Source: Candidatus Jordarchaeum sp. LHC_1308
GTDB lineage: Archaea > Asgardarchaeota > Jordiarchaeia > Jordiarchaeales > Freyrarchaeaceae
Direction: 5' to 3'
DNA length: 35,059 bases
Assembly: GCA_019057675.1 (NCBI GenBank)
Contig: JAHLWX010000012.1
Coordinates: 1-35,059 of the forward strand
Made by a program: the position numbers and the translations under genes. The notes beneath the pieces were generated by a model. That model saw nothing but the letters and a program-made list of their open reading frames with translations. It ran no database searches and was not told the origin of the DNA. Shown piece by piece: positions 7,660-23,654 of this stretch. Positions within the stretch are counted from its first letter, which is position 1. The number at the start of each line of letters is the position of its first letter.

Positions 7660-8367
7660 TTACTTCTTGATTATGAGAGCTATTGGGAGACTAGCCCTCT
7701 GCCACGTTGCATATTTTCCCTCATACGTGATTGGTGCCTCCGTTCTACCGTATGTTCCTATTATCGTTATAAGCGTGTCAGGTTGAGCCTGTCTGTAGAG
7801 CACTTTTATCCAACTGTCGGTTCTCACGATAAGTTTCTGGGCAGTTTCCTTAGGCGGTTGAAAACTGTATTGTTTGTAAAGCTCTTCAAAGTCTAGAAAG
7901 TGAACCCAGAGAAAATCTACTCTGTTAAGCACCTTTACAGTTTCCACGTAGCTCTTGTTGTCTGAATCGCTTACCCTCAACTCGCCCTTACCATCTATTA
8001 CTGCGAGATCCTCCTTCCTGCCTATCATTACAGTTCGTTTTCCAAGGGATGATAAAAAGCTGAACAAGTTAAAGTCGAAGTTATCTCCCCCAAAAACAAT
8101 CTCCCTGAGAACGTGAGGGGTATATGGGTTCTTGGATTCAAGTGTTATGATCGCCTCGGACTTGCCTATTATAAAACGAGGCTTATAGTACGTGCACTCC
8201 AGCAAGCCAAAGTTATCTATTATTATGGTTACAACGCGCTTCGAAACGAACTTTTCTGGTAAATTAACTTTTGGTGGAATGTTATTAGGTGGATCTATGC
8301 CCATCATACTTAGGAGTGTGGAGGCCATCTGGTTCATCGAACCCTGAAAGGCCATCAGTTCGCTCAT
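7660..8367 (-). CDS. Uncharacterised protein, possible degenerate alkaline-phosphatase-superfamily fold
   Basis: I do not recognise a named family. The order of elements recalls the alkaline phosphatase/phosphopentomutase superfamily: a beta strand ending in an acidic turn (VVTIIIDNFG), later VDFLWVHFLDFEELYKQ where these enzymes have a metal-binding D-x-x-x-H segment, and TLITIIGTYGRTE where they have a SDHG-type turn. Several expected metal ligands (the Asp-His of the last motif) are absent, so it may be a non-catalytic relative. The track start is a GTG at 8397; a GGTGG site points to the ATG at 8367, giving MSELMAF. No signal peptide or membrane span is seen. It is divergent from the small membrane protein across a palindromic promoter. 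Confidence 0.5.
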   Translation of the reverse strand: MSELMAFQGSMNQMASTLLSMMGIDPPNNIPPKVNLPEKFVSKRVVTIIIDNFGLLECTYYKPRFIIGKSEAIITLESKNPYTPHVLREIVFGGDNFDFNLFSFLSSLGKRTVMIGRKEDLAVIDGKGELRVSDSDNKSYVETVKVLNRVDFLWVHFLDFEELYKQYSFQPPKETAQKLIVRTDSWIKVLYRQAQPDTLITIIGTYGRTEAPITYEGKYATWQRASLPIALIIKK

Positions 8368-8426
8368 CCGAAAATCCACCATTAAAAACCTTTTCACTTC
8401 TAAAATTGGACTACTTTCTTTAAATC

Positions 8427-8457: not shown

Positions 8458-8512
8458 ATCGGGGAAATGCAAAACAACAACCTCAAATAAATTGAGGCTG
8501 GTGACTGCTAAT

Positions 8513-8812
8513 TTGAGTCAAAAGGAACAGGAAAGCGACGTAAGTAGCCTTGCAACACTACTTTTCCTCGGATTTGTATGTGTTGTAGGCTATCTCTTAG
8601 AATCATACTGGAATGGTTTGTTCCCCTTCTCCATAAGTTACACGAACACAGTCTTTTTGGCATCGCCTCATGGTCTTATAGCCATGTGTAGCTTAGCGGT
8701 AGCCTTCCTGGTATTAGGTGCGTTTAAAGCGAGGTATCCCCGCTTAGTGATTACAATTTTCTTTGTAGGAGGATGCATTGTGATACTCCTACTTTGGCTT
8801 GTCATATTCTAG
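8513..8812 (+). CDS. Small three-span membrane protein
   Basis: Unrecognised family. After a polar N-terminus, three hydrophobic segments are visible: LATLLFLGFVCVVGYLLESYW, VFLASPHGLIAMCSLAVAFLVLG and LVITIFFVGGCIVILLLWLVIF. The last span reaches the C-terminus, ending in IF with no tail. The track ORF begins at a TTG at 8492, but GGTGA eight bases upstream of the TTG at 8513 gives a better start (MSQKEQ, 99 residues). It precedes the Get3/ArsA gene by 114 bases on the same strand. That invites, but does not prove, a link with membrane-protein insertion. Confidence 0.7.
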   Translation: MSQKEQESDVSSLATLLFLGFVCVVGYLLESYWNGLFPFSISYTNTVFLASPHGLIAMCSLAVAFLVLGAFKARYPRLVITIFFVGGCIVILLLWLVIF

Positions 8813-8926: not shown

Positions 8927-9883
8927 TTGACCTTAACCGACCTCTTAGATAATCGAGGTGTTTCTTTCATACTTTTTGGCGGGAAGGGTGGCGTGGGTAA
9001 AACCAGTTGTTCTGCGGCGTCAGCTTTATGGGCAGCCGAGCATGGAAAAGAAACCCTTATAATAAGTACCGATCCAGCTCATAGTTTAAGTGATAGCTTT
9101 GACCAGCAAATAGGAGGAGAAATAAAGAAGGTAGAAGGGTGTAGCAACCTTTCGGCTCTAGAGCTTGACCCTAGGAAGACCTTTGAAGAATACAAAAGGA
9201 AACTATCGGAGGCAGAAGGATTTGAAGAGCAAACCCAATCGGTTCTTCAAGAGATCGGAGATCTTTCCAGTATGACCCCTCCAGGGGTGGACGAAGCAAT
9301 AGCGTTCGCGAAGGTTCTTGAGTTCATCGAGAACCCAGAATACGACCTAGTGATTTTCGACACCGCGCCAACAGGACACACACTGCGCCTTCTAGGCCTA
9401 CCTGACATACTAAACAGCTGGGTTGTAAACATCATAAAAGTCAGGGTTTACATGAGCAAGCTGACCGGTCTCTTCAAGCGGCTTATCGGGCGAGGAGATG
9501 AAGAGGACAGAACCCTGGAAGTTCTAGAAAAGTTAAAGAATACAATCGGCGTGGCTAGGGAGACGCTCAAGGATCCTAACGAAACGGCTTTCGTCATAGT
9601 TATGATACCTGAAGCCATGGCGATATATGAAACCGAACGTCTTCTTTCATCATTGATGGAGTATGAAATTCCATGCGACCACATAATTGTTAATATGATC
9701 TATCCTGACGTGCCAAATTGTCCCTTCTGCCGTGCAAGGAGGCAAATGCAGCAGGAAAACCTAAAGGACATAAGGGAACTATATGATGACTTCAACATAA
9801 CTGAGGTGCCTCTTTTCGAGACAGAAATAAGAGGGTTAGACATGCTCAAAAAACTCTCAGAAATTCTATTCGAGGGTTTTTAA
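8927..9883 (+). CDS. Get3/ArsA-family ATPase
   Basis: ArsA/Get3 ATPases either drive arsenite export or deliver tail-anchored proteins to membranes. The 318-residue single-copy protein has the deviant Walker A GGKGGVGKTS (about residues 18-27), switch I STDPAHSLSDSF, and the A-loop FDTAPTGHTLRLL. A CPFC pair near residue 264 matches the zinc-binding CXXC of Get3, whereas bacterial ArsA has two ATPase halves. No arsenic genes are nearby, so a targeting role is favoured. The start is TTG after GGTG with near-ideal spacing. Its 3' end overlaps the convergent Fe-S gene by 18 bases. Confidence 0.9.
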   Translation: MTLTDLLDNRGVSFILFGGKGGVGKTSCSAASALWAAEHGKETLIISTDPAHSLSDSFDQQIGGEIKKVEGCSNLSALELDPRKTFEEYKRKLSEAEGFEEQTQSVLQEIGDLSSMTPPGVDEAIAFAKVLEFIENPEYDLVIFDTAPTGHTLRLLGLPDILNSWVVNIIKVRVYMSKLTGLFKRLIGRGDEEDRTLEVLEKLKNTIGVARETLKDPNETAFVIVMIPEAMAIYETERLLSSLMEYEIPCDHIIVNMIYPDVPNCPFCRARRQMQQENLKDIRELYDDFNITEVPLFETEIRGLDMLKKLSEILFEGF

Positions 9884-10999
9884 GTGTTTAGCGACGAACT
9901 CTGAGAGGTCATAAACTTTTATTTTTCCTTCCGAGACTCCTTCAAGCTGGTTCTTGCAGAAGGGGCAGGCTGTGACTAGAATTTCCGCCCCTGTCGCCGT
10001 AGCTTCTCTAATCCTTTCCATTCCTATTTTCCGAGACAGCTCCGGAAAGTTCAACTGGAGACCTCCACCGCTACCACAGCACTTCGAATTCCTCTTGCTC
10101 CACTCCATTTCGATAAGCTGAACTCTAGCGAAACTGTTCAGGACGCTTCTCGGCTCCTCGTAGACACCCATATGCCTTCCCAGATGACAAGGGTCGTGAT
10201 AGGTCACTTTCAAGTCTTTTTCCCTGCTGGTCTTCCTTATTTCGAGTTTTCCCTCTTCAATTACTTTCCATAAGTACTGGCTTAAGTGCAAAACCCGAGT
10301 TTTTAGTGGAAAACCCATTTTCGGGTAGTCCCGGGAGAGGGTCATATAGCACCCGGCACATGACGTGACAACGATATCGCACCCCGATCTTTCTATTACC
10401 TCTTTATTGTGCTTGGCGTGCTCTGCGGCTAGCTCCCTATGGCCTGTCGATAAAAGTGGGGCTCCACAGCACCACTCCTCGTCTATCAGCGTAAAGCCGT
10501 CTCCAGCCTGCTCAAGTATCTCGGCCGTGGCTTTCGCTATACTCGGTTGTTTATAAGCCGAAGTGCAGCCAACGAAGTAAGCTACTCCCCCTTCCTTCTT
10601 CTTTCCATTTTTCTTTCCCTTTCTAAGTGCAGCAAGCCTTTTATTATGCGGTTCACCATAAGGGTTTCTTTCACTCCTAGCCCTTTCACCAAGCTCAACC
10701 GTAGCTTCGGGAGCTACATCTTTTTCGAGAAGCTTCGCCCTTACATCCTTAACTATCTCCGGAACGTCAACTCGTGGAAGACACCACTCCGTGCACAAGC
10801 CACAAGTTGCGCATTGATAAATTACCTCTGCAGTCCTTTTTCCCCCTTTAATTGCTTCATTACGCAGGTAGTAAGCTATGAGGCACTTGCCGTAGGGGGC
10901 TACTGTTTCAAGTTTAAGTTGATTCGCAACAATACACACGAAACGGCACATCTTCATGCATTCTACTCCACACATAACTACGGGGTCTAGCGTCATCAT
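9866..10999 (-). CDS. HdrD/GlpC-like iron-sulfur protein with two CCG domains
   Basis: This is an electron-transfer subunit of the kind paired with FAD-linked dehydrogenases (GlcF, HdrD, GlpC). The N-terminus has cysteine clusters CGVECMKMCRFVC and CATCGLCTEWC for [4Fe-4S] centres; the first is unusual in spacing. Two CCG domains follow: FVGC/WCCG/SCAGC in the first half and HDPCHLGRH/KCCGSGGG/ACPFC in the second. All four blocks are intact, so noncubane cluster binding as in HdrB is plausible. It is the last gene of the glycerol operon, 6 bases after the FAD oxidase, and is its likely electron acceptor. No membrane span is present, so the downstream acceptor is not shown. Confidence 0.85.
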   Translation of the reverse strand: MMTLDPVVMCGVECMKMCRFVCIVANQLKLETVAPYGKCLIAYYLRNEAIKGGKRTAEVIYQCATCGLCTEWCLPRVDVPEIVKDVRAKLLEKDVAPEATVELGERARSERNPYGEPHNKRLAALRKGKKNGKKKEGGVAYFVGCTSAYKQPSIAKATAEILEQAGDGFTLIDEEWCCGAPLLSTGHRELAAEHAKHNKEVIERSGCDIVVTSCAGCYMTLSRDYPKMGFPLKTRVLHLSQYLWKVIEEGKLEIRKTSREKDLKVTYHDPCHLGRHMGVYEEPRSVLNSFARVQLIEMEWSKRNSKCCGSGGGLQLNFPELSRKIGMERIREATATGAEILVTACPFCKNQLEGVSEGKIKVYDLSEFVAKHLKTLE

Positions 11000-11005
11000 T
11001 CTCCC

Positions 11006-12433
11006 TCATAGTCCAAGTTTACCTGGATTCATTATGTTGTTAGGGTCCAGCGCTCTCTTAATGGCCTTCAAAATGTCAAAAGCCTTCCCGTGCTCTTTAT
11101 GCATCCAGCCAGCCCTAACTAGTCCAACACCATGATGATGGCTTATTGTCCCGCCAACCTTTAGGCACGCTTCTAACGCGTCCTTCCAAACGGAGTTATA
11201 AACTTTCACTGCTCTTTCATGATCCTGTTGCTGAGTGAAGAAGATCATGTATATTGAGCCTCCATCCTCATAGAAGTGCGAGAAGTGAGCCATCATAGTT
11301 ACGCCAGGGTTCCTTTCCTCAACGGTTCTCTTAATAGTCCAGTAAAGTTCCTCAAGCTTATCGTATGGTGCTGCAACGTCTACGGTGTCCGCTATTATGC
11401 TATAGGACGACCTGAAAGCGTCAGGATAATACATATCGTATCTGTGGCGCCACCAGTGTTCTGCTAGTTCCCGGCTTACCTCTACTCCTCCCTCCTCCAA
11501 GCATATTCCCGTGGCTATTTTCTCTTCTAAATCCACAATTTCTCTTGATCCATCGAAGCCTAGTATCAAGTACGATCCACCTTCAGGTATTTCGGCTTTC
11601 CCCTTAAGGGTAAATTGGGCATCAATGTAGTCGTAGAGCCGTATCACGCAAGGCTTTACTCCTTTACGGAAGATCTTAATAACGGACTCTATTCCTGAGT
11701 GAAGGTTCTTGAATATGAAAGCTTTAAACCTCCTCTCCTCCGGAAGATGCTTTATTTTCAATGTGACTTCCGTTATTATTCCAAGTGTCCCCTCCGAACC
11801 TATGAACAGCTGTTTCAAGTCTGGTCCAGTAGATGATCGGGGAACTGGTTTTATCCTTATTATCTCGCCTGTAGGAATAACGACTTCCATACCTGCAACC
11901 ATATCTTCTATTTTTCCATACTTAGATGAAAGCGAGCCCGCCGAACGACAGGCTACAAATCCGCCCACAGTTGAACAATACATGGACGCAGGGTAGTGAG
12001 GTAAAGTGTAGCCCATCTTGTTCAGCTCTCTTTCCAGCACTTCTCCTAAAATGCCCGGCTGGACTGTTACGAGTAACGATTTGTGGTCGACTTTGACTAT
12101 CCTGTCCATTTTCTTAAGGTCCACTACGATGCCCCCGTGAACTGGGATGGTTCCACCGCAAACCCCTGCGCCCCCTCCGAACGGTATTAGGGGTATCCGG
12201 AATCTGTTTGCTAGCTTAACGATCTCTGAAATCTGCTCCGCGTTTTCGGGGTGCACTATGAAGTCAGGTTTAGGAAGCTCTCCCCCGCCCTTAATCCAAG
12301 GAACAGTCAGTTGCCATGCATCGCGTGAATAGCAGAGTAAATCTGCTTCGTCGCAGTATACGTTTTTCTGTCCTACTATGCCGACAATCTCCTCATAAAC
12401 AATGTTTCTCCAGAATGCTCCTCGCTCGCTCAA
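11006..12433 (-). CDS. FAD-linked oxidase, alkyldihydroxyacetonephosphate synthase-like
   Basis: This is a VAO/PCMH-type flavoprotein of 475 residues. The FAD-binding half shows PFGGGAGVCGG, then LERELNKMGYTLPH, STVGGFVACRSAG, KYGKIEDM and STGPDLKQLFIGSEGTLGIITE. This series resembles alkyl-DHAP synthase (AGPS) more than D-lactate or glycolate dehydrogenases. Near the C-terminus it has SHHHGVG (His 432-434), the AGPS triple histidine, where GlcD/Dld proteins carry GEHGIG. AGPS swaps the acyl of acyl-DHAP for a fatty alcohol, but here the gene lies in a glycerol-3-phosphate oxidation operon and is followed by an HdrD-like protein, which suggests a redox dehydrogenase. The start is TTG after GGAGGT. 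Substrate is undecided. Confidence 0.85.
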   Translation of the reverse strand: MSERGAFWRNIVYEEIVGIVGQKNVYCDEADLLCYSRDAWQLTVPWIKGGGELPKPDFIVHPENAEQISEIVKLANRFRIPLIPFGGGAGVCGGTIPVHGGIVVDLKKMDRIVKVDHKSLLVTVQPGILGEVLERELNKMGYTLPHYPASMYCSTVGGFVACRSAGSLSSKYGKIEDMVAGMEVVIPTGEIIRIKPVPRSSTGPDLKQLFIGSEGTLGIITEVTLKIKHLPEERRFKAFIFKNLHSGIESVIKIFRKGVKPCVIRLYDYIDAQFTLKGKAEIPEGGSYLILGFDGSREIVDLEEKIATGICLEEGGVEVSRELAEHWWRHRYDMYYPDAFRSSYSIIADTVDVAAPYDKLEELYWTIKRTVEERNPGVTMMAHFSHFYEDGGSIYMIFFTQQQDHERAVKVYNSVWKDALEACLKVGGTISHHHGVGLVRAGWMHKEHGKAFDILKAIKRALDPNNIMNPGKLGL

Positions 12434-12437
12434 AAAT

Positions 12438-13664
12438 TTAAACCTCCTTTGAATATATCCTCTTGGCTAGAAAGACTGTAAAGTCGTCTATTCCAACGCT
12501 AAGTTTCCTTCGAGCAACCCCCTCAGAAATGTTAACCGTGCAGAGGGGGCATGGAGCCACGACAAGCCCAGCTCCCGATTTAGAAATTACGTCAAGCTTT
12601 CTGCTCCTTATAGCTGCCGAAACGGTTGGATCATGAAATTTGAGCAGACCTCCGGCCCCACAGCACTCGTCAGCCCCCTTCATGCCGGCGTAGTTAACGT
12701 TTGGCAATGCTTTAAGTATTCTTTCTGCATATGCAACAACGTATCTTCCTACATGTCTGCCTAAATGGCAAGGCTCGTGAAGTGCAACTTTAACGTTACC
12801 CCCATTGCAAGCTTTCCTACTTATTACATCGACGCCTACTTCTTCAAACAGGAACTCGATCAAGTGTCTTACATGGATGCCCGAGCCCAGGTGCTTGGCC
12901 GCCGCTCTTAACTCCGAAGCACACCCTGCACAAGTAGTAACGACCTCCCTTACACCTAACTCCTTTATTTTCTCAAAAAAGCCACGTTGAAGCTCGTCTG
13001 CCATTGCCGAGTCTCCTATCAATCTGATGGGAAGACCGCAGCACTTCCATCCTTCTGGAATTCCGTAATTTACATTGAAAGCCTCTAGAACAAGCTTTCC
13101 AGCTTCTTTGACATCTAGCAGTCTAGTTTCGGCCTGACAACCTGGGAAATAAGCTATTTTGCTTCCCTTTTCAAGAGGAGGGTCTTTCGTTAATGGTAAA
13201 CCAATCATCTCCAATCTCCCTTTAAGGCTCTCCCCCCTCTCTTCGTTGCTCATAGGCTCGAATATGTAACCATATTTCGAAACGTTCTCCAGTAGTGTCT
13301 TAAGCTCTTCGGGCACGAGATCCGGTCTCTGGACGAAAATTTTCGACCTGAGGAGCACAACAACTTCCGGAATTGGAGCGTTAACAGGGCATTTTTCTTG
13401 GCATTGACCGCACAGAGTGCACATGTAAACAATGTTGCTCGCCCTCCAGAATTCTCTTACATCCCTAGAGAGCTCGTCAGCTATCCCTCGTGGGCCAGGA
13501 TAAAACTTGTCTGTGACCTCAAAGACAGGGCAGAACGCAAGACATAAAGAGCAATTCTGACATTTCTCTATCTCACTGTAAATTTCATCTTCATAGGGAG
13601 AGAAGACTACTATCTTCTCCTCGGCGAGAATCCTACTAATGTGGTCGATCTCCTTTTTTCCCAT
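12438..13664 (-). CDS. glpC: Anaerobic glycerol-3-phosphate dehydrogenase subunit C
   Basis: GlpC is the iron-sulfur subunit that takes electrons from GlpAB to the membrane. Two ferredoxin-type motifs are visible, CQNCSLCLAFCP and CTLCGQCQEKCP. Two CCG domains follow (PGCQAETR/WKCCGLP/TCAGC and HEPCHLGRH/DECCGAGG/PCPLC). The track ORF starts at 13676; a GGTGG five bases before the ATG at 13664 argues for a 408-residue protein beginning MGKKEID. It follows glpB by about 39 bases and precedes the AGPS-like gene by 4. It is a close architectural twin of the last gene in this operon, so the operon carries two such Fe-S proteins. Confidence 0.88.
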   Translation of the reverse strand: MGKKEIDHISRILAEEKIVVFSPYEDEIYSEIEKCQNCSLCLAFCPVFEVTDKFYPGPRGIADELSRDVREFWRASNIVYMCTLCGQCQEKCPVNAPIPEVVVLLRSKIFVQRPDLVPEELKTLLENVSKYGYIFEPMSNEERGESLKGRLEMIGLPLTKDPPLEKGSKIAYFPGCQAETRLLDVKEAGKLVLEAFNVNYGIPEGWKCCGLPIRLIGDSAMADELQRGFFEKIKELGVREVVTTCAGCASELRAAAKHLGSGIHVRHLIEFLFEEVGVDVISRKACNGGNVKVALHEPCHLGRHVGRYVVAYAERILKALPNVNYAGMKGADECCGAGGLLKFHDPTVSAAIRSRKLDVISKSGAGLVVAPCPLCTVNISEGVARRKLSVGIDDFTVFLAKRIYSKEV

Positions 13665-13703
13665 AAAAACCACCATCTTCCTATTCCTGCTTAAGCCCTA
13701 CAC

Positions 13704-15026
13704 TCAGCCCACATAAATTGCCGCGCTTATCCCCGCTACGTAGCCGGTGGCTGTTGCAACGCCCATACCGCTTTTCTCCCTCACGTAGCTATAGCCTGAA
13801 ATAAGGGAGCCGGCAACAAATAAATTCTCGTAAACAACCTCACCCTCAACTACTGGCTTCATCTGGGCGTTAACCTTTACCCCGCATCCCATGAGAGGGT
13901 GCCCCCCTTGGGGGAAAGGAGACCTAGCTAGAAGCCGCGGGATCTTTTGTCCTCTTAACGCCTTCCCCCTCTCGTCGTATAAAGGTAAGTTGAACACGGC
14001 CTCCTTTACTTTGTCCTCCTCCTCCACTAGTCCCCCGCCAATGAATTTCCCTGTCGCTAAAATGTAAGCCCCAGCTTTTGCAGGGAAATGTTTCCCTCCG
14101 GAGTCCAGTATGACGCTCATAACACGTCTCCCTTCACTTTTAAATCCGACTGCTTTATAGCCTCTGAGAATTCTTACCCCCTTCTCAGCGACCCCTTCCT
14201 CAAGCGCCCTCATCAGTCTTTGAGCTGGCACTGAGGGAGGTGGCGACACAAGCTCAAACACCTCAGCTTCCGTCTCTTCTCTAAGAATCCTCATGCTTTC
14301 ATAATGCTTTCTCAGTCCAAGCGTTGGGAGGGCTATATGCGAGGTGTTGCCTTTAACTGTTTCGTCTCTTAGTTTTTTAGCCAGTATCTCTCTGAATTCG
14401 TCTTTATCAATCATTCTCGCTAGTTCTATGAACGTCAGGTTAAAGTCTCTTAAAGCTGGAAGTGAGAGCTTGACTCCGTCAGCTTTTCTGAGTTCAACGT
14501 TGAATTTAGATGCAAAGTGCTTAAAGCCTGAGGCGCAAAAACGCGGGTTGAACCCTGCCAGTCCATTAAAGCCTACAACGAGTAATGACGCCCCATCAAG
14601 CTTATTTAGTGTCCCCCCACTCATTGTTGACTGGTAGAAGCATGTTATCTTAAAACTGCCTATGGTGTTTAGAAGAATAACATTCTTTTCGATGTTCCCA
14701 TCAAATCTGACCTCATGAGTAGAGGCCATGTCTAGTAAGCATTTTGTGGCTTCTTTAATTACGTCGGCAACGCTTCTTTCGCTCGAAATAACAGAGTATG
14801 GATGTTGCGGCAAACACTCAATGGTCTGGGTGACTCCTTCGAGGGGGCTTAATGTGATTTCTCCTTCCGGAAGGCACCCCATTACGTCGATCACCCCAGA
14901 CGACTGGTAGCTGGCTCCTGACCCTCTGTCAACAATCACAACTTCCACTCCTTCATCGGCAGCTTTGGCTGCGGCCAATAATCCAGCTACTCCGCCGCCT
15001 ATTACTAGAACATCGGTCTCAATCAC
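13704..15026 (-). CDS. glpB: Anaerobic glycerol-3-phosphate dehydrogenase subunit B
   Basis: GlpB is the second flavoprotein of the GlpABC complex, oxidising sn-glycerol-3-phosphate to dihydroxyacetone phosphate. The N-terminal Rossmann motif DVLVIGGGVAGLLAAAKA is complete, followed by the family's SSGVIDVMG stretch. FPQGGHPLMGCGV and NLFVAGSLISGYSYVREKSGMGVA near the C-terminus match the GlpB FAD-binding end. Length (440) is close to bacterial GlpB (about 420). The start is a GTG that overlaps the glpA stop by four bases (GTGA), indicating translational coupling and a stoichiometric complex. Confidence 0.9.
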   Translation of the reverse strand: MIETDVLVIGGGVAGLLAAAKAADEGVEVVIVDRGSGASYQSSGVIDVMGCLPEGEITLSPLEGVTQTIECLPQHPYSVISSERSVADVIKEATKCLLDMASTHEVRFDGNIEKNVILLNTIGSFKITCFYQSTMSGGTLNKLDGASLLVVGFNGLAGFNPRFCASGFKHFASKFNVELRKADGVKLSLPALRDFNLTFIELARMIDKDEFREILAKKLRDETVKGNTSHIALPTLGLRKHYESMRILREETEAEVFELVSPPPSVPAQRLMRALEEGVAEKGVRILRGYKAVGFKSEGRRVMSVILDSGGKHFPAKAGAYILATGKFIGGGLVEEEDKVKEAVFNLPLYDERGKALRGQKIPRLLARSPFPQGGHPLMGCGVKVNAQMKPVVEGEVVYENLFVAGSLISGYSYVREKSGMGVATATGYVAGISAAIYVG

Positions 15027-16660
15027 TTATCTCCCCCGCCGATTTTCACGTCGATTGATCCCACACAAGCGTAAGCAGCCTGGGTCATCTCATACTCGCT
15101 GAGCTGGGCTCCCCTCAAAATCACGAAATGCCCTTTCCATCTTTCAGCTAAGAAGTTTTCAAGCTCTTTGAATGCTTCATCAACCTTAATTCCTCTCTCC
15201 TCAGCTAGAACCGACATAGCTTTGAATCCGCAGGAGAAGCCTTGACACGGACCCATGCCCATCCTAGTTCGTCTTCTCAGCGCATCTAAGGTTACCCCCC
15301 ACTCGTTCCGTATGACGTACCGTAGCTCAGCCTCGGTTACAGACTCGCATAAGCAAACACTTGAAAGGAAGTCTCTCTCATCCCTTGCCTCCGATAATAT
15401 GGCGTGAGCCAGTGTGCCTTGCCTTGAAGCGAGTCGCCCAGCAACTTGCGGTGAAACACGGTACTTTGAAGCCAGTTCTTCCACGCTGATCTTCCCATCT
15501 GCCCCGGGCAATGGCTCTAAATGAGTTCTACATGGAGCCTCGCGGCCAAGCTTTTCACAGACCAAGTCGGTTATCTTTTCAGCCATAGCTCGGCAGACGA
15601 CCAGCTTTCCCCCCTCGACGCTCACCAGACCCTTAACTCCATCCCTCTCTTCATGATCGATCACCTTGAAGTTTCTTGTCACGTCCCCCTCGGGCACCCA
15701 CCACTGAGCGATTAACGGTCTAACTCCGCACATAACTCTGACTACTCGTGCCTTTCTCACCGAAGGTACAGCCATCTCCATGCTAGAAATTAAATACTCG
15801 ACTTCATCATATGTTGCTTCAGCCTCATCCGGGCTGGTGAATATGTCTATTGCAGTCGTACCCAAAATCGACCCAGTTTCGTGGGGGAATAGGTACACAG
15901 TCCTTCCATCTAAAGCCTGACAGATTATACCAAACCTTGTAATTCTTCTGTCAAAAATGACGTGCGTCCCCTTATTGAGCCTTAGCGTCTGTTTGACCCC
16001 TACCATCCTTGAAATCTCTGGAACCCATGCGCCAGTAGCATTAACTATAATTTTTCCTTTTACCTCCTCTTCCTTGCCGTTTAACCTGTCCCTGACCTTA
16101 ACTCCATAAACTTCCCCGTCCTTATGAAGTATATCGATAACCTCAGTGTACGTCCTTATTTCCGCTCCATGTCGCTTAGCGGATAGCGCCGTAAGAACGG
16201 TTAGCCTAAATGGGTCGATAAACATCTCGTCAAAGTAAGCCGCGAGAATTATCTTTGAGCTCAACTTAGGCTCTAGGCTTCTAGCCTCTTGGGGAGATAA
16301 AACTAAAATAGGACTTGCCTGTCTTTTCTCAGTTAAAGCACCATACTTCTCAGCGAAGCTTGCTCTAAGCTTAAGCTCCTCCTCTGTTAGTATAGCTGTT
16401 ATTATCGGCGTCCTGAATACTATGTGGCCAGCTATCCGAGAAAGATTTATAACTTCCATTGTACACATTGCAGAAAACTCCGGCTCCTGTAGCACGTATT
16501 TTGTTCCCCCACTGATCATGCCGGCGCAGGCACCTGTAGCACCTGATGCTAGGTCCCCTCTCTCGAAAAGAATAGTTTTAAAACCACGCATCGCACAATC
16601 TCTTGCAACGCTAGTACCAGTTGATCCTCCGCCGATAACTATAACATCGTATTCTTCCAA
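15023..16660 (-). CDS. glpA: Glycerol-3-phosphate dehydrogenase subunit A (FAD, with BFD-type [2Fe-2S] domain)
   Basis: This is the catalytic DAO-fold flavoprotein. DVIVIGGGSTGTSVARDCAMRG binds FAD, ERGDLASGATGACAGMISGG matches the GlpA/GlpD region that contacts the cofactor, and INATGAWVPEI is the second FAD segment. The C-terminal part carries four cysteines in a BFD-like arrangement (CLCESVTEAEL, then GPCQGFSCG), the extra [2Fe-2S] domain that separates anaerobic GlpA from aerobic GlpD. The 545-residue length matches. It starts at TTG after GGTG, 77 bases behind the kinase, and is coupled to glpB. Confidence 0.92.
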   Translation of the reverse strand: MEEYDVIVIGGGSTGTSVARDCAMRGFKTILFERGDLASGATGACAGMISGGTKYVLQEPEFSAMCTMEVINLSRIAGHIVFRTPIITAILTEEELKLRASFAEKYGALTEKRQASPILVLSPQEARSLEPKLSSKIILAAYFDEMFIDPFRLTVLTALSAKRHGAEIRTYTEVIDILHKDGEVYGVKVRDRLNGKEEEVKGKIIVNATGAWVPEISRMVGVKQTLRLNKGTHVIFDRRITRFGIICQALDGRTVYLFPHETGSILGTTAIDIFTSPDEAEATYDEVEYLISSMEMAVPSVRKARVVRVMCGVRPLIAQWWVPEGDVTRNFKVIDHEERDGVKGLVSVEGGKLVVCRAMAEKITDLVCEKLGREAPCRTHLEPLPGADGKISVEELASKYRVSPQVAGRLASRQGTLAHAILSEARDERDFLSSVCLCESVTEAELRYVIRNEWGVTLDALRRRTRMGMGPCQGFSCGFKAMSVLAEERGIKVDEAFKELENFLAERWKGHFVILRGAQLSEYEMTQAAYACVGSIDVKIGGGDK

Positions 16661-16737: not shown

Positions 16738-18198
16738 TTAAGTTCGCCCCAAGACCTCGGAGTAGCTGGAGAGTAGAATCTTCATGAAAACGGGATACAT
16801 TTCGTCGTAGATTCTCTTGTTCTCCTCTTTTGGCTCTCTTACCTCCACAATCTTAACCATGGCCTCGGCGGCGTCCTCCACAGATGGGAACAATTTAACT
16901 CCCGTCGATGCTAGAATTGCTGCGCCAAGCGCTCCAGCCTCTTCGATGTGGGGCACGGCGATACGTTTACCTGTTATGTCGGCTTGTATCTGCCTCCAGA
17001 GCTTGGATCTAACTCCTCCCCCATCTGCTCTTAGCTCATTGATGGCAACGCCCATCCCTGAAATCACTTCTAGGATCCCTCTTATTCCAAACCCGTTACA
17101 CTCCATTATCGCTCTGATTAAGTGCCTCCTGCTATGTGCGAACGACAAGTTGTGAATGGAACCCTTGCCAAAGTTAAACAGTGGTATTACAAGTAGCCCA
17201 TCAGATCCTGGACTGATCGTCTCAGCCTCGTCTTCGAGTATGTTGTATGCATCCACGCCGATGTCGCTGGCTACTTTCTTTTCTAAGTGTCCAAAGTTGT
17301 CGCGGAACCATTTGAGTATGCTTCCCGTCCCCGGAATGACTCCCTCTAGCACCCACTTTCTCTCCAAGACGTGAGGCAAAGTAAAAAGTATACCAAGGGG
17401 ATCGTAAATCGGCTTATCTATAAGTGCATTTACAAATGTCCCTGTCCCGGTGGTTACCTTAGCTATTCCATGCTTTGTCGCTCCAACACCGACGCATGAG
17501 CATTGCTGGTCTCCTCCCCCCACGACTACTGGTGTGCCGGTTCTAAGTCCGGTCTCCCTTGCTGCCTCCTCTGTCACTTCGCCAATAACCTTCCCCGACG
17601 GGTAAACGTCCACCCACTTGTCTAGGGGGACTTCGACTTCATCAGCCAATTTTTCGTCCCAGGATAATCTCTCAACATCAAATGGCCCATAAAACGCGTT
17701 TGAAAAGTCTGACGCGAAGACTCCCGCTATCTTAAAGTAGAAGTAAGAATCAACAAATAGGAACTTAAATGTTTGCTCAAATATGGAATGAAGGTTGTCT
17801 TTTATCCAGAGAACCTTGTTCAAACTTTCTCTCTGACCTATCTTCTCCTTCAGCTTCCTCGCTGAGGGGGAAATTCGCGTGTCCATCCAAGTGATCGCTC
17901 GGTAAAGTGGCTTTCCATTCTTGTCGATGGGAAAAACGGTCGCCCTCTGAGTGCAAACACTGACGGCAGCCACATCCGATGGAGAAACACGTGCACTTTT
18001 CAGAGCGAGCTGCATGGTTCTACACGCAATCTCCCACCACTCCTCAGGAACTTGCTCTGACTGCCCTGGGAACTCGGAAATAGTAGAATACTCTTCATAG
18101 CTACATCCCAAAATTGAGCCTTCAAGGTTAAACAATAAGGCACGGATACCCGTCGTTCCCACATCAAAAACAGCTATGACGTTTCCACTTCTCTCCAA
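16738..18198 (-). CDS. FGGY-family carbohydrate kinase, probably glycerol kinase
   Basis: This is a sugar/polyol kinase of 486 residues. The N-terminal phosphate motif DVGTTGIRALLF, the substrate region TQRATVF and TWMDTR, the catalytic GGGDQQ aspartate, the TGTGTFV loop, and the C-terminal DGGGVRSKLWRQIQADITG are all seen, so the enzyme should be active. The residues around MDTR differ from classical glycerol kinase (QDRR type) and look partly xylulokinase-like, so the family alone does not name the substrate. Position as first gene of the glpABC operon strongly suggests glycerol. The start is TTG after GGGGGAT, and a TATA-like TTTTTTAAC lies about 35 bases upstream. Confidence 0.8.
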   Translation of the reverse strand: MERSGNVIAVFDVGTTGIRALLFNLEGSILGCSYEEYSTISEFPGQSEQVPEEWWEIACRTMQLALKSARVSPSDVAAVSVCTQRATVFPIDKNGKPLYRAITWMDTRISPSARKLKEKIGQRESLNKVLWIKDNLHSIFEQTFKFLFVDSYFYFKIAGVFASDFSNAFYGPFDVERLSWDEKLADEVEVPLDKWVDVYPSGKVIGEVTEEAARETGLRTGTPVVVGGGDQQCSCVGVGATKHGIAKVTTGTGTFVNALIDKPIYDPLGILFTLPHVLERKWVLEGVIPGTGSILKWFRDNFGHLEKKVASDIGVDAYNILEDEAETISPGSDGLLVIPLFNFGKGSIHNLSFAHSRRHLIRAIMECNGFGIRGILEVISGMGVAINELRADGGGVRSKLWRQIQADITGKRIAVPHIEEAGALGAAILASTGVKLFPSVEDAAEAMVKIVEVREPKEENKRIYDEMYPVFMKILLSSYSEVLGRT

Positions 18199-20046: not shown

Positions 20047-20132
20047 TTTTACTAGAAAATTATTATTTAGTATTTTCTGCAATTACTTATCGAAGAAGTT
20101 AATGTCCCCCTCAAAGATGCAAGGTGTTAGAC

Positions 20133-20660
20133 TTGAGTCAAGCAAAGTACATCTTTAAGATAGTTGTTGTGGGAGACGGTGCTGTAGGAAAAACCAGTTT
20201 AATTATGAGGTATACCGAAGAAAAGTTTCGGTCAGACTACATAATGACCATAGGGGCGAACTTTGCAATCAAAAACGTCGAAGTGGACGGTGTTATCATT
20301 AAGCTTCAATTGTGGGATCTTGCTGGACAACCGCAGTTTAAGGAAGTACGTTCCTCTTTTTATAGGGGTGCTGCAGGCGCCATCTACGTTTATGATGTCT
20401 GCCGACCTGATAGCTACCTCAACTTAGTGAACTGGAAAAACGAGCTTGTAAAAGAGTGCGGTGAAGTGCCGGGCGTACTTCTTGCTAACAAAATAGATTT
20501 AGAGGAGCATCGTAAAGTTACCCCCGAAATGGGGGAAGAACTTGCCATGCGTCTCGGTGGATTACCATACTTTGAGACAAGTGCCTCTACAGGTGTCGGC
20601 GTAAACGAAGCCTTCCAAAAAATAGCAGAATTAGCATATAGGGCAGCGACCAAGAAATGA
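20133..20660 (+). CDS. Rab/Ras-like small GTPase
   Basis: This is a single-domain P-loop GTPase of about 175 residues with a full set of G motifs: G1 GDGAVGKTS, G2 threonine in MTIGANF, G3 WDLAGQ, G4 NKID, G5 ETSAS. The WDLAGQ and YRGAAGAIYVYDV blocks are Rab/Arf-superfamily-like, as in the small GTPases of Asgard and some TACK archaea. The C-terminus (AATKK) has no cysteine for prenylation, so any membrane contact must be indirect. The track start is a GTG at 20124; the GGTG that contains it works better as a ribosome site for TTG at 20133 (MSQAKYIF). It stands alone, with no effector or roadblock gene beside it. Confidence 0.92.
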   Translation: MSQAKYIFKIVVVGDGAVGKTSLIMRYTEEKFRSDYIMTIGANFAIKNVEVDGVIIKLQLWDLAGQPQFKEVRSSFYRGAAGAIYVYDVCRPDSYLNLVNWKNELVKECGEVPGVLLANKIDLEEHRKVTPEMGEELAMRLGGLPYFETSASTGVGVNEAFQKIAELAYRAATKK

Positions 20661-20688: not shown

Positions 20689-21885
20689 CTAAAATGCGCT
20701 AGTGACCGTTCTTTTTGCTAAAAGCGTTTGGACGGCGTCTTCAAGTTCACTTAAGAACTCCATGATGTGTCTCCTCTTAACATGTGGCATCACAACTATC
20801 CTTAGAAATTCTGGAAACTTGCCTAGGGCCCAGCCTCTCCTTCTGAGTTCCAAGTCCAGCTTGCATATGTCGACAGCATTTGACGAAATTCCAATAATGT
20901 TCATTGTTGGCTTTACTGGTAATCCTAGGCCGTCTACCCTTTGTATTCCCTTCTCTAATATCTCGGTATTCTTCATGCATCTCTTAACTATCCTAATATA
21001 TCCTTCGATTCCTAAGTGGTTGAGCAATGCCCATGTCGCAATGACCGCGGCTCCCGAGCGTGTTCCAAGTATTATCGGGTGGCTATTTTTTCCCCCTGCT
21101 AGGTAAGGGATCTCGAAGCTATTATCAATAAAAAGTTTTTCGTCTCGAAGAAGCAATCCGCCGGCGGGTATGGGCGCCATCCCCATCTTATGCGGATCCA
21201 CTGTTATGGAGCATACGCCCTCGTTTCTGAAGTCAAAGCTTGGAACTTTGAATCCGGCTTTATCTAGGAAAGGTAGCACGAATCCTCCAAACGCGGCGTC
21301 GACGTGAAGGTATATTCCTTTGTCTTCTGCTATGTCGGAGAGAGCGTCTATCGGGTCTACTGTTCCTAGAGCTGTAGTTCCGGCTATGCCGACTAAAGCG
21401 AACGTGTCATCTGTCACTTTTTCTTGTACGTCGTCCACGTCGACCCTGTACTCTTCATCAAGTCGCGCTTTAACTAATTTTACATCAAGCAAATCTGCCG
21501 CCTTGTCGAATGACGCGTGAGCCGACTCAGGAACTATTATTGTTTTACTTTTCTTACCCTTTTTACGTGAAATGTTTCTGGCTATACGCATTGCAGAAAT
21601 ATTTGCTTCTGTTCCTCCGCTTGTTATTATTCCTGAAGCGTTAGGGCTTCCTAAAAGTTCCCCCATCATGCTTATGACTTCTTTTTCTAACTGTAAGGTT
21701 GCAGGGAAAAGCCCTGGGTCACCTAAATTCTTTTCAAGATACTTGGAAAATATCTTTCTTGCTAATGGATGTGGAATAGTGCACATGCTACCTAATATTC
21801 TTCCAGAATGATAGCTCATATCTGATATTAATCTTTCCTCGATTTCCCTTAGAACTTCCTTAGCGCTAACTCCTCTCAGCTTCAT
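20689..21885 (-). CDS. mfnA: MfnA-type PLP decarboxylase (L-aspartate/L-tyrosine decarboxylase)
   Basis: This is a group II PLP-dependent decarboxylase of 398 residues. SGGTEANISAMRIAR, PESAHASFDKAA, HVDAAFGGF and the PLP-lysine segment VDPHKMGMAPIPAGG are all intact. Archaeal members make tyramine for methanofuran or beta-alanine from aspartate for CoA. The adjacent PanE, PPS and PoK genes argue for aspartate decarboxylation here, but the sequence does not settle the substrate. Its ATG lies inside the end of panE (20-base overlap), giving coupled translation. It is the last gene of the CoA operon. Confidence 0.92.
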   Translation of the reverse strand: MKLRGVSAKEVLREIEERLISDMSYHSGRILGSMCTIPHPLARKIFSKYLEKNLGDPGLFPATLQLEKEVISMMGELLGSPNASGIITSGGTEANISAMRIARNISRKKGKKSKTIIVPESAHASFDKAADLLDVKLVKARLDEEYRVDVDDVQEKVTDDTFALVGIAGTTALGTVDPIDALSDIAEDKGIYLHVDAAFGGFVLPFLDKAGFKVPSFDFRNEGVCSITVDPHKMGMAPIPAGGLLLRDEKLFIDNSFEIPYLAGGKNSHPIILGTRSGAAVIATWALLNHLGIEGYIRIVKRCMKNTEILEKGIQRVDGLGLPVKPTMNIIGISSNAVDICKLDLELRRRGWALGKFPEFLRIVVMPHVKRRHIMEFLSELEDAVQTLLAKRTVTSAF

Positions 21886-22816
21886 CAGAGATCACGCTTT
21901 TCTTTTGATTGATCTTTGCTTCTAGTGCTTTAACTATTGCAGTTACTGCAAAATTTACAGGCGTCTTAACTTCATATTTTTTGCCGTAAGCAACTATTGC
22001 TCCATTAATGTAATCTATTTCAGTTTTTTTGCCTTTTTCTAGATCCTGAAGCATGGAATTTTTATTGGTGGCAGTCATCTTCGCAACCCTAATAGCTTTA
22101 GTGAAGGGATCTTCCGTTAAAGTGATGTTATGCTTCTTAGCAACGTTCTCTCCCTCCACAATAAGCTCCTTCATAACTTCTAGAAGGAGTGGATGGTCAA
22201 GTATCTCACCATTTCTAAGTCCCGTTATGGCTCCAATGGGATTTATTCCAGCGTTAACGAGCACCTTTCCCCAAACTTCTCTTTCAATGTTATCCGTAAA
22301 CCTTGCATCGAAACATGCCTCTCTAAGAAGTTCAGCAATGCTTTCTGCCTTTTGCGGCGGGACACCAAAAGGAGACCCTATTAGGCTTTCTCCTCTCCCA
22401 GCATGTCGCACAACTCCTGGTTCCACCAGCTGTGCCCCCTCAGAGGTTACCCCTCGAAAAACCTTTTCTTTTCCTAAGATCTCGGCTGCCTCTTTTTCTG
22501 TATCTAGTCCGTTTTGCATGCAGATAACTAAGCTGTCTTTTTCTAACAAGTGTTTAGCATCCATCGCAGCCTTCCTAGTATCGTATGCTTTAACCGTCAA
22601 GAAGACTATATCCGCTTTGCCTGCCTCTAAAATGTTGGTCGTTGCTTTCACTCTAACTGTAAATGTTTCATCGTCTTCCAATATTTTTAATCCTCTTTTT
22701 CTTATCATTTCTACATGTTCTTTTCGGCCTATCAGTAATACTTCAACACCTATCTTTGCCAGCATTCCTCCGAAAAGGCTTCCTATGGCTCCAGCGCCCA
22801 AAAAGGCGACTCTCAA
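21866..22816 (-). CDS. panE: 2-dehydropantoate 2-reductase
   Basis: Ketopantoate reductase makes pantoate with NAD(P)H. The N-terminal FLGAGAIGSLFGGMLAKIG is the nucleotide fold, VKAYDT carries the likely catalytic lysine region, NGL is the substrate loop, and EVWGKVLVNAGINPIGAITG matches the C-terminal signature. The 316-residue length is standard. The start is TTG after an AAGGGAT stretch. It lies between PPS (40-base gap) and mfnA (overlap) in the CoA operon. Confidence 0.93.
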   Translation of the reverse strand: MRVAFLGAGAIGSLFGGMLAKIGVEVLLIGRKEHVEMIRKRGLKILEDDETFTVRVKATTNILEAGKADIVFLTVKAYDTRKAAMDAKHLLEKDSLVICMQNGLDTEKEAAEILGKEKVFRGVTSEGAQLVEPGVVRHAGRGESLIGSPFGVPPQKAESIAELLREACFDARFTDNIEREVWGKVLVNAGINPIGAITGLRNGEILDHPLLLEVMKELIVEGENVAKKHNITLTEDPFTKAIRVAKMTATNKNSMLQDLEKGKKTEIDYINGAIVAYGKKYEVKTPVNFAVTAIVKALEAKINQKKSVISDEAERS

Positions 22817-22856
22817 CTTGTATCCCTTTGAAGGCTAATTTTTCCAACTCTGAACT

Positions 22857-23654
22857 TTAAGATGTCTCCTTGAATTCGTCAAATATTGTTCCTCCAGCTT
22901 CAGCTATTGCCGTTAATCTATCTCTTATTATTCTTAGCATGTCTGCCAAAACTTTCTTATTGTTATACTTTTCTAGAATCTCTTTCAGCTGTTCCTTTGA
23001 GTATTTTTTTAATCTTCTTGCTTCCTCTACAAGGAGAGGCATGCATCTCACTGCATTGTCAACTATTGTTATGTTGGCATACTGTGCGGTTCTGCTAAGG
23101 GGATTTAGGTCTATCGCGATAACCGTTTTTCCTAATTTTCTAAGTGCCTGCGTCCTGTCACCGTCTTCGATGGAAACGAGGACTACGTCTGCTATCATTA
23201 TTCCTCTTCGGTCAACTACTCTCCTAACGCTTGATATCTCCGGAATTTCTCCATCAGCTGTCTCTCCTACTCCTAAGATCTCTTTTGCCCCTACTTCTTC
23301 CAAAACTTTCTTTATTGCTTCAATTCTTTCTTGGCTTCTATAGAAAAGATTTATCTCTATTTTGGCATTTACCTCCTCGGCAAGCTCTACTACTTCTCTT
23401 GGTGAGAGAGCTGCCAAGTTTCCATTAACACTTATGACGGGGTGCTTCGCTAATAGAAGAGCTGAAACAGCAGCGTGTATAGCTTCCATTACTGGTGGTT
23501 GCGTCCTCTCACCTAAAAGGTAGTCAAACGCCTCCCCTCTGCCATGCGCTATGAGCCCTGCTTTAGCCACAATCTTATTCTCCATTCCATGAATAATTTT
23601 ATGCCTTATTCTCAAGGACTCAGCTCTAGGGTGCCCTGGTGGAATTTCGCTCAT
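22857..23654 (-). CDS. 4-phosphopantoate--beta-alanine ligase (phosphopantothenate synthetase, DUF137)
   Basis: PPS joins 4-phosphopantoate and beta-alanine, replacing bacterial PanC in most archaea. The protein of 265 residues begins IPPGHPRAESLRIRHKI, includes GLIAHGRGEAFDYLLGE, HPVISVNGNLAAL, GVGETADGEIPEI and IAIDLNPLSRTAQYANITIVDN. These are the hallmark blocks of the DUF137 family. The ATG has a GAGGGG site upstream. It follows pantoate kinase by 22 bases, so the enzymes of consecutive steps are neighbours. Confidence 0.95.
   Translation of the reverse strand: MSEIPPGHPRAESLRIRHKIIHGMENKIVAKAGLIAHGRGEAFDYLLGERTQPPVMEAIHAAVSALLLAKHPVISVNGNLAALSPREVVELAEEVNAKIEINLFYRSQERIEAIKKVLEEVGAKEILGVGETADGEIPEISSVRRVVDRRGIMIADVVLVSIEDGDRTQALRKLGKTVIAIDLNPLSRTAQYANITIVDNAVRCMPLLVEEARRLKKYSKEQLKEILEKYNNKKVLADMLRIIRDRLTAIAEAGGTIFDEFKETS

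Follow-up and report, generated by a model that had tools for sequence, protein, structure and literature searches.

Does an archaeal flavoprotein that resembles alkyl-DHAP synthase (AGPS), with which animals begin to make ether lipids, do the same, or does it serve another purpose? The question is raised by a gene in contig JAHLWX010000012.1 of the Asgard archaeon Candidatus Jordarchaeum sp. LHC_1308, of which positions 1 to 35,059 were analysed and are called the window here. The gene starts with a TTG codon behind a ribosome-binding-like site (AAAGGAGGT) and encodes 475 residues (Table 1). A preliminary description of the DNA had reported SHHHGVG, STVGG, STGPD and LERELNKMGYTL from this ORF and had called the blocks AGPS-like. 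All of them were confirmed in the 475-residue sequence, with SHHHGVG at residues 431–437, and the likeness held as well: AGPS is the top PDB match by phmmer (Dictyostelium 2uuu, 5.9e-67; guinea-pig 4bby, 1.3e-62), ahead of D-lactate dehydrogenase (LDHD, 4.4e-49) and glycolate oxidase (1.2e-45). Judged by these E-values, the similarity to AGPS is far beyond chance. The Pfam domains are PF01565 (FAD_binding_4, 5.6e-41) and PF02913 (FAD-oxidase_C, 6.1e-43), and the nearest NCBIfam model is GlcD, at 265 bits with a cut-off of 568. When an AlphaFold model (pLDDT 85.9, least certain at residues 89–93 and 338–342) was compared by fold, guinea-pig AGPS again came first (TM 0.85–0.89), followed by mLDHD (0.83). 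The nearest named record is a 90% identical protein encoded in the same operon in Candidatus Jordarchaeum sp. JNZ_1113.

The protein was then placed in a maximum-likelihood tree of 59 proteins, including its orthologs, AGPS, GlcD, LDHD and LctD, in which the aligned segments of PDB chains serve as AGPS reference rows and the bacterial AGPS rows come mostly from plasmids. Myxococcus AGPS MXAN_1676 and PA3026 were left out of the tree, with Streptomyces, Rhodococcus and a Myxococcota phylum-mate homolog as stand-ins. One clade of 43 rows (support 100/100) unites the window protein with its orthologs and with eukaryotic AGPS; GlcD, LDHD and LctD form a separate clade of 13 rows (support 100/99), with the window protein outside. 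It is also outside the strict AGPS branch, which comprises six rows (guinea pig, Dictyostelium, two Streptomyces, Rhodococcus and the homolog from the phylum-mate of a Myxococcota genome; support 100/99). Forcing the two Jordarchaeia proteins (window and L007) into the AGPS branch was rejected by the AU test (p-AU 0.00032), as was forcing them into GlcD/Dld (p-AU 2.4e-5), and placement of the Asgard rows inside the AGPS-side clade is poorly resolved. Within the FAD-oxidase_C family the protein thus sits on the AGPS side, yet it is no AGPS. Because SHHHG is common in the AGPS-side clade outside the AGPS branch itself, this motif alone is no diagnostic of AGPS.

Likeness to AGPS/ADPS (4bby, 2uuu) extends beyond the FAD-oxidase_C fold and SHHHG into the active site. 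Alignment matches guinea-pig H300, T309, R419, S527, the catalytic Y578 and H615–H617 to H146, T155, R265, T350, Y395 and H432–H434 of the window protein (Y578 and R419 being Y508 and R352 in Dictyostelium). The residues that surround the DHAP portion of the substrate in AGPS are kept. H146, R265, H383, H386, Y395, H433 and H434 are invariant or nearly so. Absent is the catalytic arginine (guinea-pig R515, Dictyostelium R447), which in the guinea-pig enzyme presumably serves the acyl leaving group; the window protein has D338 there, within residues 338–342, where the model is of low confidence. Arginine occupies this column in all six AGPS-branch rows versus one of the 37 other AGPS-side rows, and that one is a degenerate copy without the catalytic Tyr. 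The importance of this arginine for AGPS catalysis was established by mutagenesis, and an extra gating domain has been reported for AGPS (PMC3509576). The stretch from R265 to D338 spans 73 residues, versus 95–96 from R419 to R515 in AGPS; by this count the window protein lacks about 22 residues at the site of an AGPS insert, and the missing stretch may be the AGPS gating element. The window protein further differs from AGPS in lacking its N-terminal extension, in having an Fe-S partner and in its separate clade. Of the preliminary description, then, the reading as an AGPS-side oxidase branch is borne out, and placement inside the D-lactate/glycolate dehydrogenases, which it had named as the contrary outcome, is not what the tree gave. 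The AGPS tyrosine/histidine set to which it had pointed is retained in Y395 and H432–H434, and so is R419 in R265, but R515 is not.

The AGPS-like gene is the fifth of six on the minus strand, in the order kinase-glpA-glpB-glpC-AGPSlike-CCG2, with intergenic gaps of 77, -4, 27, 4 and 6 bp.

Table 1. Genes of the six-gene operon in the window, in order of transcription
Feature	Coordinates	Strand	Evidence
FGGY kinase, GlpK paralog with altered glycerol pocket	16738–18198	-	PF00370/PF02782, PDB matches, pocket table
GlpA-type FAD dehydrogenase with BFD domain	15023–16660	-	TIGR03377, residue table
GlpB-type flavoprotein	13704–15026	-	TIGR03378
GlpC-type iron-sulfur protein, two 4Fe-4S motifs and two CCG domains	12438–13676	-	PF02754, PF13183, motif scan
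AGPS-like FAD-oxidase, the subject of this study	11006–12433	-	ORF, Pfam, motifs, PDB matches, tree, model
CCG2, second iron-sulfur protein, two CCG domains, GlcF/HdrB-type	9866–10999	-	PF02754 1.2e-37, PDB matches

GlpB scores above the TIGR03378 cut-off (206.6 versus 174.15 bits) and GlpA below that of TIGR03377 (454 versus 552.8 bits). CCG2, with PDB matches to an iron-sulfur-binding reductase and HdrB, is the likely electron acceptor of the AGPS-like subunit. Sister genome G003 repeats the six-gene order, and so does Asgard family f4 (G025, G039 and G050, as well as G045, where the kinase is outside the view), and the kinase, the AGPS-like gene and CCG2 occur together in Asgard families f3, f12 and f16 and in Baldrarchaeum. 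In Thermoplasmatota an AGPS-like/CCG pair has as its neighbours a GlpA-like protein and a GlpK that passes an NCBIfam cut-off, an AGPS-like gene adjoins GlpABC in bacterium L045, and Microbacterium also has one, beside GlpK/GlpD. Neighbour calls rest on profiles built in this analysis, and small loci restrict the view of neighbours. On the AGPS side outside the AGPS branch, a CCG-type Fe-S gene adjoins the AGPS-like gene in about 32 of 37 rows; no such neighbour was found at the four bacterial AGPS-branch loci. Two arrangements count against the explanation favored below: Helarchaeota and Hermodarchaeota loci have AGPSlike-CCG2 with kinase and Glp genes not nearby, and family f2 has no CCG2 after the AGPS-like gene.

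In Lentisphaerae, Verrucomicrobia, Kiritimatiellae and Planctomycetes, AGPS-like genes belong to sugar-type clusters that also encode XylB-like and PfkB kinases, IolB-like and SftI-like isomerases and an aldolase, and the encoded AGPS-like proteins have NEHHG where the window protein has SHHHG. The presence of these relatives in sugar clusters with XylB-like kinases indicates that the substrate differs within the clade, a further point against the favored explanation. One uncharacterised carbohydrate cluster of this kind (L022 5748–14377: PfkB, IolB-like, XylB-like, AGPS-like, SftI-like isomerase, class II aldolase and NagB-like) is common to many Lentisphaerae, Verrucomicrobia and Kiritimatiellae. 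Some bacterial clusters keep the Fe-S partner gene with its cysteine motifs lost and no Pfam match (L022 10438–11412, L160 8434–9555), and in those the partner may do something other than redox work. In deltaproteobacteria/Myxococcota-type genomes (L013, L025, L146, L148 and L151), AGPS-like genes occur as tandem pairs; several pairs have lost the catalytic Tyr from one copy, which suggests that such pairs may combine a catalytic and a structural subunit. The f4 operon is followed by genes for an MSMEG_0568-type radical SAM protein and a GNAT acetyltransferase (L173 1138–4543, L176 1037–4443), and in two genomes an aldehyde dehydrogenase also lies downstream. Elsewhere in the window are a Ras-family small GTPase (20124–20660, plus strand; PF00071, 2.6e-52), which an Asgard genome would be expected to encode, and two ORFs with no Pfam match (7660–8397, minus strand; 8492–8812, plus strand). 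Successive genes for an MfnA-type decarboxylase, a ketopantoate reductase and an archaeal phosphopantothenate synthetase (20689–23654, minus strand) make up a cluster for coenzyme A synthesis.

The pathway encoded beside the AGPS-like gene is itself altered. GlpK binds glycerol through Arg83, Glu84, Tyr135 and Asp245 (PMC3245297). Where GlpK has NQRETT, the operon kinase has TQRATVF, so that Glu84 is replaced by Ala; Arg83 and Asp245 are kept and the Tyr135 column is not. The kinase is below every NCBIfam cut-off (TIGR01311, 215 versus 590 bits), and its best PDB matches are AI-2 kinase and glycerol kinase. All 18 GlpK-type kinases that share a locus with an AGPS-like gene, including those of Thermoplasmatota and Microbacterium, have lost Glu84, with Ala, Ser or Gly in 15 and Asp in the three of f4. 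XylB-like bacterial kinases were not counted, as their motif columns are not comparable with those of GlpK. The kinase gene of L177 is split, and its N-terminal piece reads TQRGT. By contrast, 32 kinases of relatives carry the canonical QRET..Y..DQQ pattern, and by contig and position none of these is near an AGPS-like gene. Eight genomes (G003, G008, G025, G029, G039, G042, G044 and G050) encode both types, and in every one the altered kinase adjoins the AGPS-like gene and the canonical GlpK lies elsewhere; the kinases are related by descent, and neither the 18 nor the eight are independent events. Several more altered kinases occur where the DNA covered does not reach their neighbours; coordinates place that of G024 at 1.4 kb and that of G030 at 8 kb from the AGPS-like gene. 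The altered/canonical split recurs in five Asgard families, Thermoplasmatota and one actinobacterium. The GlpA of the window operon has GGTKY where others have GGxRY; this mild change (R54 to K) occurs in 12 of 13 Asgard operons, and other GlpA copies of the same or related genomes keep Arg54. The operon looks like a second, altered glycerol-type catabolic pathway that is widespread in Asgard archaea.

A GlpK and an extra GlpABC operon of Freyarchaeia were described earlier as glycerol catabolism (PMC11291895), and the part of that paper drawn on here makes no mention of the AGPS-like flavoprotein, CCG2 or the pocket changes. Set against the anaerobic GlpK-GlpABC pathway as outlined in that part, the window operon has the same kinase-glpA-glpB-glpC order but differs in the kinase without Glu84, in the GlpA with Lys for Arg54 and in the added AGPS-like and CCG2 genes; the canonical GlpK and GlpA of related genomes lie outside the AGPS-like operon. 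In Pseudomonas aeruginosa, PA3026–PA3023 likewise places an FAD-binding oxidoreductase beside a GlpD homolog and an FGGY kinase; it differs in that an Fe-S partner is not reported and the lipid kinase YegS is present, and deletion of PA3026–PA3024 gave no phenotype (PMC8151288).

Lipid genes were examined in eight Asgard genomes, four of which reach 90% completeness or more and do not exceed 5% contamination; the genome of the window is 84% complete. GGGP synthase was found in seven of the eight, the window's genome included, and G1P dehydrogenase gave a strong match in G003, the sister genome, and in four more, and only a weak match in the window's genome. The PF01553 acyltransferase (PlsB/PlsC/GNPAT-type), found in 10 of 14 controls, was absent from all eight Asgard genomes in this search for members of that one family, and GpsA (PF07479) and PlsY (PF02660) were also found in none of the eight. 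The fatty acyl reductase domain PF07993 was uninformative, matching eight of eight Asgard genomes and 14 of 14 controls. With GGGP synthase and G1P dehydrogenase matched and PF01553, GpsA and PlsY missing, the lipid equipment of these genomes is archaeal.

Given the retained DHAP-site residues, the lost AGPS arginine and the neighbouring kinase, GlpABC-type dehydrogenase and Fe-S acceptor, this AGPS-side member of the FAD-oxidase_C family is probably not an ether-lipid synthase but the flavin subunit of a catabolic enzyme coupled to an Fe-S protein. Substrate class, electron flow and direction are what we infer here, and action on a DHAP-like phosphate in the paralogous glycerol-type pathway is most likely. 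We found no characterised member of this branch in the literature. In such a pathway, the kinase would phosphorylate a glycerol-like compound other than plain glycerol, and GlpABC would oxidise the product, yielding a ketone phosphate that resembles DHAP. This ketone phosphate, or its precursor, would then be oxidised or cleaved by the AGPS-like subunit at FAD N5 with Y395 or a His as base, electrons would pass through CCG2 to an anaerobic electron-transfer chain, and the carbon would join central metabolism as DHAP. Without Glu84 and Tyr135 the kinase pocket would have more space around the far end of glycerol, so a glycerol substituted at C1, either an ether or a longer polyol, suggests itself as a candidate substrate. 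Were it an ether, the AGPS-like step would reverse AGPS chemistry: the altered kinase would phosphorylate an alkylglycerol, the altered GlpABC would make alkyl-DHAP, and the flavoprotein would cleave the C1 ether bond by way of an FAD N5 intermediate and release DHAP. That the operon is such a catabolic mirror of AGPS is a speculative possibility, to which we give a low probability.

Other roles for the flavoprotein were weighed against the favored one of a catabolic flavoenzyme acting on a DHAP-like phosphate. It could be a GlcDF-type D-2-hydroxyacid dehydrogenase, for lactate, glycolate or glycerate, working beside glycerol catabolism: the two-domain fold is shared with GlcD, LDHD and LctD, mLDHD is a close fold match, the adjacent CCG subunit is as in GlcDF, and GlcD is the nearest NCBIfam model. 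This is nonetheless unlikely, and it was dropped on the metal ligands and the clade. At the His-His-Glu metal site of lactate dehydrogenases, the window protein has H386, Y395 and H433, so that Tyr and His replace a His and the Glu among the three ligands; the GlcD/Dld clade was rejected; and the same-genome paralogs C14 and C60, with an EHG-type motif, could do that job. Two other FAD-oxidase paralogs of this genome (L004 823–2298, L005 1489–2970) each have a CCG gene and neither GEHG nor SHHHG, the motif position of L004 reading STYIGDG. Oxidation of sn-glycerol-1-phosphate, as partner of a GlpABC taking sn-glycerol-3-phosphate, would yield DHAP, which would suit an AGPS-type pocket; it would fit the archaeal G1P lipid genes of the group, and the operon kinase lacks glycerol-pocket residues, so its stereochemistry could differ. 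We consider it improbable, as the reversible G1P dehydrogenase already links G1P and DHAP and the gene pair is kept in bacterial members, where G1P lipids are not expected. There is a small chance that the protein has no substrate of its own and serves an enlarged GlpABC complex as electron-transfer flavoprotein, given that it adjoins GlpC, that family f2 has no further Fe-S subunit and that the related LctD is part of a complex linked to NAD and ferredoxin (7qh2). However, an LctD-like complex is weakened in that EtfAB-like genes were not found among the annotated window genes, the seven active-site residues are invariant or nearly so, and GlpABC is absent from many loci. A true alkyl-DHAP synthase making unusual ether lipids, the other path proposed in the preliminary description, is very improbable and was dropped, for although AGPS is best by sequence and fold and the SHHHG, Tyr578 and Arg419 equivalents are conserved, the R515/R447 equivalent and the AGPS insert are missing, the protein is outside the AGPS clade (p-AU 3.2e-4), its neighbours are Fe-S and glycerol-catabolic genes, and the acyl-DHAP-producing enzymes whose absence that description had said would tell against it are indeed lacking in the eight Asgard genomes as far as PF01553 is concerned, as are PlsY and GpsA.

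These results bear on how AGPS homologs are read. AGPS is among the enzymes listed for LUCA (PMC11383801), and Agps homologs have been screened in Black Sea genomes, including those of Verrucomicrobiota and Desulfobacterota (PMC11868695). AGPS homologs serve as evidence of ether-lipid capacity, and homology alone should not be read so: since the AGPS side consists mostly of kinase- and Fe-S-linked genes without the AGPS arginine, ether-lipid calls need a test for R515/R447. Eukaryotic AGPS branches inside this mostly catabolic-looking group, a position that suggests a way in which a dehydrogenase could give rise to a redox-neutral flavoenzyme. If true, the catabolic mirror of AGPS would be a route for anaerobic ether-lipid recycling in Asgard archaea.
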